Below are positions 22,150 to 46,686 of a stretch of DNA of 64,000 bases, piece by piece. Source of the stretch: Bradymonas sediminis (GTDB lineage: Bacteria; Myxococcota_A; Bradymonadia; Bradymonadales; Bradymonadaceae); NCBI RefSeq assembly GCF_003258315.1, contig NZ_CP030032.1, positions 4,261,501-4,325,500 of the forward strand, written 5' to 3'. The translations under genes were made by a program, and so were the position numbers. The stretch's first letter is position 1. The number at the start of each line of letters is the position of its first letter. Under the pieces are notes generated by a model. That model searched no databases. It was not told the DNA's origin and was given only the letters and a program-made list of their open reading frames with translations.

Positions 22150-23364
22150 CTATTGCGAACAAACGCCGACGTTCGGGGCGCCCGGGAAGACGCTCCCAGC
22201 GCCGACGCAATAATAATACTCGCCGGTCCAATAATCATCGAGGAAGTCGCAGTCGCCGTAGCCGACGCGGCAATGCATAAAGCAGGAATAGGTGTCGCCG
22301 GCGTTCGCCAGGCAAGCCACGCCAAAGCCGTCGCTCATCTGACCGCAGGTCTCGTAGGAGGGCGAGCATTGGTCGCCGAGGCTCGACGGCGCCGGGTCGA
22401 TGCTGCTGGTGCACACGCCCTGGGTGTCGCTGACCGGGTTGCAGACTTCGTTGCTCGCGCATCCGTTATTGGAGGTCCACAGCGTGCATGGCTGACCGCC
22501 GCCGGTGCTCTCGGGCACGCAGAGGCTGCCTTCGCAGGTATATCCCGAGGGGCAGGAGCCGTTGCAGCCGTCCTGGGGCGGGATGCAGATATTATTCTGA
22601 CAGGTATAGCCGGACGGACAGGCAGGGTTGCACACGTCCGGGTCGGGGGTGTCGGCCACGCAGGTGCCCGCCTGGCAGGTTTCACCGAAGCCGCAGGCCG
22701 GGTTGCACTCGTTGGGGTTCGACGCGTTCGGCACGCATTGGCCGTTGCTGCAATGCTCCGAGATATCGCAGCCCGGGTCGCAACCGTCGGCGGGCGGGTT
22801 GTCGGCCACGCAGGTGCCGCTGTCGCAGGTATATCCGGTCGCGCAGGCGGGGCTGCAGACGTTGGGGTCGGAGGCGTTCGGCACGCATTGGCCGTTGCTG
22901 CAATGCTCCGAGATATCGCAGCCCGGGTCGCACACGTTCGGGTCGACCGGCGTATTGGGCACGCAGGTGCCGCTGTCGCAGGTCTCATCGCTCGCGCAGG
23001 CCGGGTTGCACACGTTGGGATCAGGCGTGTTATTCGCGTTGTTATTATTGGAGGACTCACCCGCTTCGCATTTGCCGAGCGCGACGTTGCAGGTCTGGCC
23101 GAGGGCGCAGCCGGCGTCGCTTGAGCACTCCGCGTCCGCGACGCGGTCGGGCAGCGTGGGATGGCCCCCGCCACCGCTGCCGATGTTGGATTCGCATACG
23201 CCGGCTTCGACATTGCAGCTCTGGGCGAACGCGCAGTCGAAATCGTCGGTACACTCCGGCTCGGCCGCCTCGTCCGAACCACACGCCGCCAGCCCAAAGC
23301 AAAGGGCTGCCACCGCGAAGAGGCTCAGCAGCAAATTTTTCAGTTTATATTTCTTCATCATCAT
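22150..23364 (-). CDS. Cys-rich repeat lipoprotein 1
   Basis: 404 residues. The lipoprotein signal ends FGLAAC. The body consists of repeated 25-30 residue units of the type CNPAC..DETC.SGTCV and CDPGCDISEHCSNGQCV, seven or more in a row, then a C-terminal domain with about ten Cys (QPCTLW, SIDPAP, CFMHCRVGYGDCD). All Cys are probably in disulfides, giving a rod-like surface protein. The C-terminal domain is shared with the next gene. Three consecutive ATG codons start the frame; AGGAAG lies close by. Function unknown; the family is abundant in Bradymonadales-like genomes. Confidence 0.82.
   Translation of the reverse strand: MMMKKYKLKNLLLSLFAVAALCFGLAACGSDEAAEPECTDDFDCAFAQSCNVEAGVCESNIGSGGGGHPTLPDRVADAECSSDAGCALGQTCNVALGKCEAGESSNNNNANNTPDPNVCNPACASDETCDSGTCVPNTPVDPNVCDPGCDISEHCSNGQCVPNASDPNVCSPACATGYTCDSGTCVADNPPADGCDPGCDISEHCSNGQCVPNASNPNECNPACGFGETCQAGTCVADTPDPDVCNPACPSGYTCQNNICIPPQDGCNGSCPSGYTCEGSLCVPESTGGGQPCTLWTSNNGCASNEVCNPVSDTQGVCTSSIDPAPSSLGDQCSPSYETCGQMSDGFGVACLANAGDTYSCFMHCRVGYGDCDFLDDYWTGEYYYCVGAGSVFPGAPNVGVCSQ
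22724..22932 (-). repeat. Identical 59-bp repeats inside the Cys-rich lipoprotein gene
   Basis: Positions 22724-22782 and 22874-22932 are identical over 59 bases and lie 150 bp (50 codons) apart. They encode the CDPGCDISEHCSNGQCVPNA unit twice. The lack of silent differences points to recent duplication or gene conversion. Confidence 0.85.
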
Positions 23365-44474: not shown

Positions 44475-46025
44475 ATGGAAATCGGACATACCCTCCTCAC
44501 GCTTGAAACAATCGAGTCGGTCGTCGTCGACCGCAAAGAGGTGCAGCTCGCCGAATCGGCGCACGCCAAGATCAACGAGGCGGCGCGTTTTGTGCGCGAG
44601 ATGGCCCATAGCGGAAAGGTCGTGTACGGCGTGACCACCGGCTTCGGGGCAAACCGCAACCACGTGATTCGCCCCGAGGACGCCGAGACCCTGCAGGAGC
44701 GGCTGATCGTGAGCCACGCGTGCGGCGTGGGCGCGCCGCTGTCGACCGAGGTGGTGCGCGCGATGATGCTCCTGCGGGTCAACGCGCTGGCCCAGGGCGA
44801 CTCGGGCATCCGGCTGTCGACCCTGCAGGTGCTGGTCGATATGCTCAATCGGGGCGTGCACCCGATCGTGCCGGAGATGGGGAGCGTGGGGGCCAGCGGG
44901 GACCTCTGCCCGCTGGCGCATATGTGCCTGCCGATCCTGGGCTACGGTGAAGCCGAGTATAAGGGCGAGGTGATGAGCGGCGAGGAGGCGATGCGGGCGG
45001 CCGGGCTGTCGACGGTGCGCCTGACCTATAAGGAGGGGCTCGCGCTGCTGAACGGCACCCAGGCGATGACGGCGGCCGGGGTGATCGCCGCGATCTATTT
45101 CCGCCGCCTGCTCGACTGCGCGGACACCGTCGGCGCGATGAGCTTCGACGCGGTCGGTGGGCGGCTGGCCGCGCTCGACGCGCGCATCCATGAGCTTCGC
45201 AGGCGCCCGGGGCAGATCCACAGCGCCCGCGTGGTGCGGCGCTTGCTCAAGGGCAGCGAGCTCGCCGGCGCCCAGCCCGGCAGCATCGAGGGCAAGGTGG
45301 AATACGTCCAGGATTCCTATTGCCTGCGCTGCATGCCCCAGGTCCACGGGGCCAGCCGCGACGTGCTCGACCACGTCATCGAGGTCCTGACCACCGAGGC
45401 CAACGCGGTCACCGACAACCCGCTGGTGTTCCCGCCCAAAGACGGCGAGCCCGGCGCGATCCTGTCGGGCGGCAACTTCCACGGCCAGCCCGTGGCGATG
45501 GCGCTGGACTATCTGAAGATCGCGATCGCCGAGATCGGCAGCATCTCCGAGCGTCGCTCGGCCAAGCTCACCGACAAATATTTCTCTGAGGGGCTGCCGC
45601 CCTTTTTGGTCACCAACCCGGGCCTGAACTCGGGGATGATGATCCCGCAATATGTCGCCGCGGCGCTGGTCTCCGAGAATAAGACCCGCTCATTCCCGGC
45701 CAGCGTCGACTCCATCCCGACCAGCGCGAATATGGAAGACCACGTGTCGATGGGCATGCACGCCGCGATGCACGCGCTCAGGGCGCTGGAGAATGTCGAG
45801 CGGATCGTGGGCATCGAGTATTTGATCGCCGCCCAGGGCCTCGACTTGCGCGAGGGCTACCAGCTCGGCGAGGGCACCGCCCGCGCGCTGGCGCACCTGC
45901 GCGAGCACGTCAGCTTCTTGCAACATGACCGCGTGATGTACCCCGACATCAATAAGGCCGCCGACCTGATTCACGACGGCTCGTTGGCGGAGACGATGGC
46001 GGCGTTTTTCGCGCCGGTGGATTGA
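44475..46025 (+). CDS. hutH: Aromatic amino acid ammonia-lyase, histidine type
   Basis: 516-residue MIO enzyme that removes ammonia from histidine to give urocanate. The MIO-forming motif ASG is in GSVGASGDLCPLAH. The N-terminal YGVTTGFGANRNH carries the catalytic Tyr. The substrate-selecting pair is Ser-His (LIVSHACGVG), as in HAL, not His-Leu of tyrosine or Phe-Leu of phenylalanine lyases. No other hut gene is near, so the pathway cannot be confirmed here; a biosynthetic use is the alternative. The ATG at 44475 is clear. Confidence 0.85.
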   Translation: MEIGHTLLTLETIESVVVDRKEVQLAESAHAKINEAARFVREMAHSGKVVYGVTTGFGANRNHVIRPEDAETLQERLIVSHACGVGAPLSTEVVRAMMLLRVNALAQGDSGIRLSTLQVLVDMLNRGVHPIVPEMGSVGASGDLCPLAHMCLPILGYGEAEYKGEVMSGEEAMRAAGLSTVRLTYKEGLALLNGTQAMTAAGVIAAIYFRRLLDCADTVGAMSFDAVGGRLAALDARIHELRRRPGQIHSARVVRRLLKGSELAGAQPGSIEGKVEYVQDSYCLRCMPQVHGASRDVLDHVIEVLTTEANAVTDNPLVFPPKDGEPGAILSGGNFHGQPVAMALDYLKIAIAEIGSISERRSAKLTDKYFSEGLPPFLVTNPGLNSGMMIPQYVAAALVSENKTRSFPASVDSIPTSANMEDHVSMGMHAAMHALRALENVERIVGIEYLIAAQGLDLREGYQLGEGTARALAHLREHVSFLQHDRVMYPDINKAADLIHDGSLAETMAAFFAPVD

Positions 46026-46037
46026 CCCGGCGCGGGG

Positions 46038-46199
46038 GCGTCTTCCGGGGGGACTCGCTGCACGGCGACGGGATGTGGGGGCGTTTGGATGGGCCGTGGC
46101 GTCTTCCGGGGGCTCTCTGCATGGCGACGGGATGTGGGGGCGTTTGGATGGGCCGTGGCGTCTTCCGGGGGCTCTCTGCATGGCGACGGGATGTGGGGG
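46038..46199. repeat. 59-bp tandem repeat, 2.7 copies
   Basis: Copies start at 46038 (61 bp, diverged), 46099 and 46158 (truncated at about 46199). Each carries GCGTCTTCCGGGGGCTC near its start and GCATGGCGACGGGATGTGGG in the middle. The middle part shares the dispersed core seen at 32.6 kb and 46.45 kb. It lies just past the ammonia-lyase stop and is non-coding. Confidence 0.85.
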
Positions 46200-46243
46200 G
46201 TTCGCAGGCCTTGCCGTACGTGGACATTCGCATTCTCGCGAGC

Positions 46244-46391
46244 TCACCCCCGGCTACAAAGGTCCCGCTACGCGGGACGACGCTTCGGCTTCGCCTACGC
46301 TCATTAACAACCGACAATCCCCGACGCCGTTAATAAGCGAAGCGCCGTGTGGCGAAGCGTAGCGGAGCCACACCTTTGTAGCCGGGGGTGA
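46244..46391. mobile_element. MITE-like palindromic element
   Basis: 148 bp with perfect 20-bp inverted ends (TCACCCCCGGCTACAAAGGT and its complement). Between them are two sub-hairpins, GTCCCG / CGGGAC at 46262-46278 and GTGTGGC / GCCACAC at 46347-46373, so the whole can fold into a large cruciform. It encodes nothing. Size and ends fit a MITE or REP-type element; no target duplication was established and no second copy was seen in the window. Confidence 0.65.
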
Positions 46392-46449
46392 CTCCCCTTA
46401 ACGCCCAAAAACCGCGAAAATAATGCCGTTCCGAAACCCCATAAACCTT

Positions 46450-46471
46450 CGCCATGCAGGGAGCCCCCGGA
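46450..46471 (-). repeat. Dispersed repeat copy, inverted
   Basis: The complement reads CCGGGGGCTCCCTGCATGG, one base different from the copy at 32618-32639. It lies between the palindromic element and the 34-bp array. Confidence 0.6.
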
Positions 46472-46482
46472 CGGCGTGTCAA

Positions 46483-46686
46483 ACCCATATCCACCCATCG
46501 ATTCAACGTCGCACCAACCCATATCCACCCATCGATTCAACGTCGCACCAACCCATATCCACCCATCGATTCAACGTCGCACCAACCCACATCCACGCAT
46601 CGATTCAACGTCGCACCAACCCACATCCACGCATCGATTCAACGTCGCACCAACCCACATCCACGCATCGATTCAACGTCGCCCTA
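46483..46686. repeat. 34-bp tandem array, six units
   Basis: Six contiguous 34-bp units with no spacers, starting at 46483, 46517, 46551, 46585, 46619 and 46653. Each contains ATCGATTCAACGTCGC. Units 1-3 begin ACCCATATCCACCC and units 4-6 begin ACCCACATCCACGC, a block structure. The last unit contains the stop codon of the convergent lipoprotein gene. It is a VNTR-like array, not CRISPR. Confidence 0.95.

Follow-up and report, generated by a model that had tools for sequence, protein, structure and literature searches.

What is a perfect 20-bp inverted repeat (46244-46263 and 46372-46391) doing in the DNA between two convergent genes? The locus lies in a stretch of 64 kb, here called the window. 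On its left an aromatic amino-acid lyase gene (PF00221), on the plus strand, ends at 46025, and on its right an open reading frame on the minus strand ends at 46684. A preliminary description took the repeat to be the outer ends of a non-coding 148-bp element, a MITE or REP-like sequence possibly moved by a transposase encoded elsewhere. Much of what it saw locally is borne out: the repeat is exact, with pairing ending at the next outward base; the two internal sub-hairpins, GTCCCGCTACGCGGGAC and the 27-nt GTGTGGC..GCCACAC, are both present; only mechanical open reading frames cross the 148 bp; and no second copy was found within the window. As RNA, 46230-46405 has a predicted folding energy of -86.2 kcal/mol vs -56.2 for shuffled sequences (sd 3.9, n=200; z -7.7), and none of the 200 shuffles was as stable. 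Where the element ends is another matter.

Anatomy of the paired units

The element outgrows its 20-bp ends. It runs to 46165-46470, and the 20-bp repeats, far from being outer ends, form the inner, GTAG-carrying arms of two larger units that face one another (Table 1). Read in the GTAG direction, a unit consists of a hairpin, H1, then 4-5 nt, a tag (G/T/A)TAG (some copies have TTAG or ATAG instead of GTAG), CCGGGGG-TGA and, 75-76 nt on, the partner arm CCCCCGG, which completes a second hairpin, H2. In the window units H2 is a 7-bp foot with a 75-nt loop. The pattern GTAGCCGGGGGTGA, with at most one mismatch, has 25 matches in the same genome and its reversed control has 2. Twenty of the 25 have both an H1, separated by 4-5 nt, and a partner arm for H2 that shows at most one mismatch. 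That arm is spaced 75-76 nt away in 19 of these 20 units, a 22-nt spacing scoring best in the exception, L056; the five remaining matches, where the fixed spacing is absent, are on that ground called chance. Folded as single-stranded DNA, the long H2 regions are no more stable than their shuffles (z -1.1 to +0.4), and so H2 is founded on its conserved arms and their spacing, not on energy.

Table 1. Features of the paired element and its flanks in the window
Feature	Position	Strand	Basis
Whole inverted pair of REP-like units ('tail-tail', GTAG inside), 306 bp	46165..46470		fixed H2 arm distance and direct reading
148-bp segment first described; core between the two H2 loops	46244..46391		
Left unit (type A), H2 outer arm, CCGGGGG on plus; pairs with 46247-46253; loop 75 nt	46165..46171	-	row L042
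Left unit, H2 inner arm, CCCCCGG on plus	46247..46253	-	
Left unit, tag, CTAC on plus, GTAG on minus	46254..46257	-	minus-strand pattern match G000 4307744-4307757
Left unit, H1 hairpin, type A, GTCCCGCTACGCGGGAC on plus, 7-bp stem	46262..46278	-	
Right unit (type B), H1 hairpin, GTGTGGC..GCCACAC, 7-bp stem	46347..46373	+	row L043
Right unit, tag GTAG	46378..46381	+	pattern match G000 4307878-4307891
Right unit, H2 inner arm, CCGGGGG, then TGA common to units	46382..46388	+	
Right unit, H2 outer arm, CCCCCGG; loop 75 nt	46464..46470	+	
Tandem array, 59 bp x 2.7, overlapping left outer end; H2 outer arm inside each repeat	46037..46199		
Tandem array, 34 bp x 5.9, beginning 11 nt outside right H2 end; absent elsewhere in genome	46482..46682		

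The genome-wide search which the preliminary description had called for, with a single copy as the outcome that would count against it, gave 14 element matches at E<=0.001, the window copy included, in the one contig of 5,045,683 bases (5.05 Mb). Besides the window copy, five are near full length (91, 91, 86, 73 and 75% identity) and several are halves. Units of the GTAGCCGGGGGTGA type number about 20, short of the hundreds familiar for REPs. The inverted two-unit pair is itself a repeated entity (the window, L002-L005 and L008), every full pair read being type A facing type B and never A-A or B-B. Among 57 genomes searched, its own included, matches were confined to that genome and one relative (G010), where the sole match sits just upstream of a transposase gene of the kind considered next.

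A Y1 transposase between full copies

The suspicion of a transposase elsewhere was well placed. A gene for a 136-aa Y1 (HUH) transposase, TnpA (G000:C1 1153234-1153644; L024:3235-3645), is bracketed by two full copies of the element and one half copy, and its product is probably their mover; read in the direction of tnpA, a type-B unit is found 315 nt upstream of the gene and, 101 nt downstream of it, one of type A, with H1 outermost and H2 facing the gene. The TnpA beside the G010 match is 56% identical to this one. About 1 kb from the gene, at L024:761-2228 on the minus strand, are open reading frames that we take to resemble an IS3-type transposase pair.

To which class does the enzyme belong? 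The genome has nine Y1 genes by PF01797 match, of which four are strong and short; the five weaker ones (L018-L022) are possibly class 2 (RAYT-like). The 136-aa protein scores 79 bits with PF01797 and is placed in the IS200 class by NCBIfam (NF033573, 63 bits vs a cut-off of 55). The REP transposase model NF047646 gives it 21 bits, far below the cut-off of 80, which by that criterion puts it outside the RAYT class. Its motifs are DHVH, WQ and YVENQKRHH, with no Y---NP of the RAYT class. All four strong proteins fall in the IS200 class by NCBIfam, score far under the REP transposase cut-off and carry DH[VI]H, WQ and Y---Q--HH, and across 30 proteins HxH, WQ and Y---Q--HH are invariant or at least 90% conserved. 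The four genes are dissimilar, the other three being 47-61% identical to the first, and at one of them (L031) the unit-grammar scan found no unit. Around another Y1 gene of the genome, at C1:313.9 kb, is a second subfamily, GGCCTTGTAGCC..., of the same layout; in L029:2822-4243 a second Y1 gene stands amid duplicated GGCCTTGTAGCC... units, with 195-bp tandem copies on both sides. The closest solved sequence is IS608 TnpA (E 2.3e-18); the predicted structure (pLDDT 89) has ISDra2 and IS608 as its best fold matches, and E. coli TnpAREP (4er8) comes at rank 30, last among the 30 chains at E<=0.001.

In Table 1 of the survey by Quentin et al. 2018 (PMC6006769), DH[IV]H, WQ and Y---Q--HH are the signature of subclass 1.2, and the protein here matches it, as judged by motif and not by the authors' profiles; a length of ~135-150 aa and few dissimilar copies per genome are further points of likeness. 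That table has 'no' under REP for the subclass, and the survey describes it as lacking IS properties and as generally without IS200-type terminal structures, whereas here hairpin units flank the genes. Where the survey places its 26 TIRYTs, all are in subclasses 2.1, 2.2 and 2.5 and none in 1.2 (PMC6006769). Our literature search found no paper linking subclass 1.2 to REPs, and within that literature the link between an enzyme of subclass 1.2 type and tagged double hairpins is new.

Resemblances to known systems are several. As in the REPIN/BIME arrangement with a RAYT (TnpAREP), the REPtron, GTAG stands at a palindrome's 5' foot, units are paired in inverted order, and a Y1 gene lies between repeats of its own, with one repeat family per gene. 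Unlike there, the enzyme is of IS200 class (Y---Q--HH rather than Y---NP), GTAG has an additional hairpin, H1, before it, the loop of H2 is 75 nt long, and there are ~20 units rather than hundreds. IS200/IS605 elements (IS608, ISDra2) provide the closest solved enzyme relatives and also have a tetranucleotide on the 5' side of the hairpin foot, but their ends are same-strand whereas those here are inverted, they have W[TS] where WQ is present here, and their copies are near-identical, in contrast to the four divergent tnpA genes. GTAG palindromes and TIRtrons include GTAG-tagged palindrome dimers, tail-tail (TT) ones among them, some in Cyanobacteria, Chloroflexi and the PVC group; Di Nocera et al. 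2013 (PMC3733652) tie those families to RAYT or TIRYT enzymes, unlike the subclass 1.2 type of enzyme here (PMC3733652, PMC6006769).

Tagged double hairpins beside related genes

Is the arrangement peculiar to one genome? Related loci were gathered from GTDB contigs (80, by a scan with a five-protein alignment) and from 377 genomes of the phylum (30), and the 98 with at least 250 nt on each side were kept, those with short flanks being dropped; a few loci occur in both collections (L061/L146 and L060/L159, for example, look alike). TAGCC-tagged double hairpins are generally associated with such tnpA genes in other phyla. In 70 of the 98 loci an inverted repeat between the 600-nt flanks scored more than 5 above the best among 20 shuffles; the controls, cross-locus pairs and direct repeats, gave 18 and 36. 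Ranked by number of loci, the leading tetramers between the two hairpins, of all 256, were AGCC (66), TAGC (53) and GTAG (37), with a median of 14, and TAGCC was top of the 1024 pentamers. Near the gene 51 of 98 loci have it, 27 of them on both sides, vs 1 of 55 loci in the far flanks (1.2-2.4 kb), with none on both sides; a control pentamer, CCGAT, was found in 8 of 98 near and 4 of 55 far. The tnpA genes of the genome in question fail the flanking test (13 vs 13 for the shuffle at L139, 10 vs 11 at L158 and 14 vs 18 at L166, with L168, 17 vs 12, at the margin and not passing) because types A and B share only ~13 nt.

A covariance model, R1, was built from nine units in register at nine loci, units that had been chosen for having stems. 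Alignments of 32 and 19 units, in which H1 was out of register, were not used for it, and rows were dropped for alignment reasons. With the nine building loci left out of the 80 from GTDB, R1 has matches (E<=0.01) in 43 of the 71 held-out loci. Position and orientation were counted for the matches at that threshold only (102 of 129). Ninety-six of the 102 are within 700 nt of the gene, though that zone has 30% of the bases, and 81 of those 96 have H1 outward and H2 inward (38 upstream on plus and 43 downstream on minus, with 9 and 6 the other way). By their record titles the matched loci include Verrucomicrobia, Planctomycetes, Acidobacteria, Cyanobacteria, Chloroflexi, Bacteroidetes and Myxococcota. 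Eighteen of 20 such genomes have 3-61 matches each (E<=0.01), and two Nostoc genomes have none. Many of the genome matches listed form, as read by eye, plus-then-minus pairs; the window pair has the opposite order. Among the 377 phylum genomes, 19 are TnpA-positive and these include six of the twelve that are R1-positive (Fisher p 5e-6, uncorrected for kinship); the other six R1-positive genomes are without TnpA at E<=1e-25.

How does the window family relate to this wider kind? R1 was run on the window, ten further stretches and 26 of the 30 phylum loci, the tnpA loci L139, L158, L166 and L168 of the window's genome being omitted as already covered by those stretches. The window gave E 0.21 and the best match in its own genome E 0.0075; genome-wide there was no match at E<=0.001. 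The model misses the family probably because of the 75-nt loop of H2, and the window's place in the wider kind therefore rests on layout and enzyme. The layout is common to both: H1, tag and CC-stem, with H1 outermost and H2 on the gene side around tnpA.

Readings of the pair and its flanking arrays

On the likeliest explanation, the two-hairpin units form a non-autonomous, inverted pair of REPIN-like kind, which the 136-aa TnpA moves or copies in the form of folded single-stranded DNA. The partnership of the repeat pair with this transposase is well supported; movement of the pair we infer, and neither transposition nor an empty site nor a target duplication was observed. On folded single-stranded REP, E. 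coli TnpAREP makes its cut next to the structure, and it requires GTAG (PMC8266576); among its residues tied to the GTAG guide is Q95, and W94 is conserved (PMC6006769), with WQ being retained in the TnpA here. By analogy, TnpA would bind the unit on exposed single-stranded DNA, recognising the GTAG tag, cut beside the hairpins, presumably in the stretch just outside H2, and rejoin, so carrying or copying the inverted pair as a unit.

Could the pair instead be a right-end/left-end junction left behind by a tnpA-bearing element, from tandem copies or the joint of a gene-less circle, and not a mobile unit? With B upstream and A downstream of tnpA in L024, type A can be taken as the right end and B as the left, and as all full pairs read are A facing B, the pair could therefore be such a junction. 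Pairs at several loci without tnpA argue against it, and E. coli REPtrons are likewise built of pairs flanking tnpA (PMC6006769), so that no junction has to be supposed for a pair that moves as a unit; we regard this origin as unlikely. Considerably less probable is a purely structural or regulatory element, such as a terminator or a site for gyrase or another protein, repeated by recombination: position between convergent genes and the strong RNA fold would suit it, while the link with a single type of transposase across several phyla, and the fixed GTAG spacing, do not, though host use could coexist with the transposase partnership. Least probable is an ordinary MITE, in which a deleted IS keeps terminal inverted repeats of 20 bp, a DDE enzyme moves it and target duplications result. 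Despite perfect inverted ends, lack of coding and multiple copies, likeness among copies continues beyond the 20 bp to the H2 arms at fixed spacing, the gene bracketed by the same ends is a PF01797 Y1 gene, no DDE transposase gene with those ends was seen around the copies read, and no duplication is readable in flanks that are tandem arrays; a plain MITE with a DDE partner was thus rejected. What stands of the original 'MITE or REP-like' is a repeated, non-coding sequence of REP-like two-hairpin units, and what falls is the mover of terminal-repeat and duplication type, the partner being HUH (Y1).

For the REPIN-like reading there is significance on two counts. A widespread group of single-strand transposases, described without IS ends and REPs, gains a concrete DNA partner, and REP formation is placed inside the IS200 class, which bears on the origin of domesticated REP transposases from IS200-like ones.

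The outer ends of the units have a peculiarity of their own. A tandem array is within 60 nt of the outer end in 14 of 20 units vs 1.4% of random window points, its start being 4-18 nt outside H2 in several, and 4 of the 14 arrays are duplications of the unit itself. It is because arrays abut both outer ends that target duplication is unreadable. The arrays would be consistent with rounds of cutting and renewed copying immediately outside H2, or with a preference for tandem targets. They offer a testable link between single-strand cutting and minisatellite birth. A broader proposal, which we put forward tentatively and with the balance somewhat against it, is that subclass 1.2 TnpAs drive a REP world of their own in several phyla, of two-hairpin TAGCC-tagged inverted pairs with one family per enzyme, and that here cutting outside H2 seeds tandem arrays at most copies.

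That the arrays are part of the mobile unit was rejected for the two tested, whose DNA is nowhere else in the genome, the sole other occurrence for the second being an 86%-identical neighbour ~200 nt away. Arrays with 33-80 bp repeats abut the outer ends of most units (the window, L024, L026, L027, L028, L032, L038 and L056). Elsewhere in the window, at 22619-23019, is a tandem array of 75/150-bp units.
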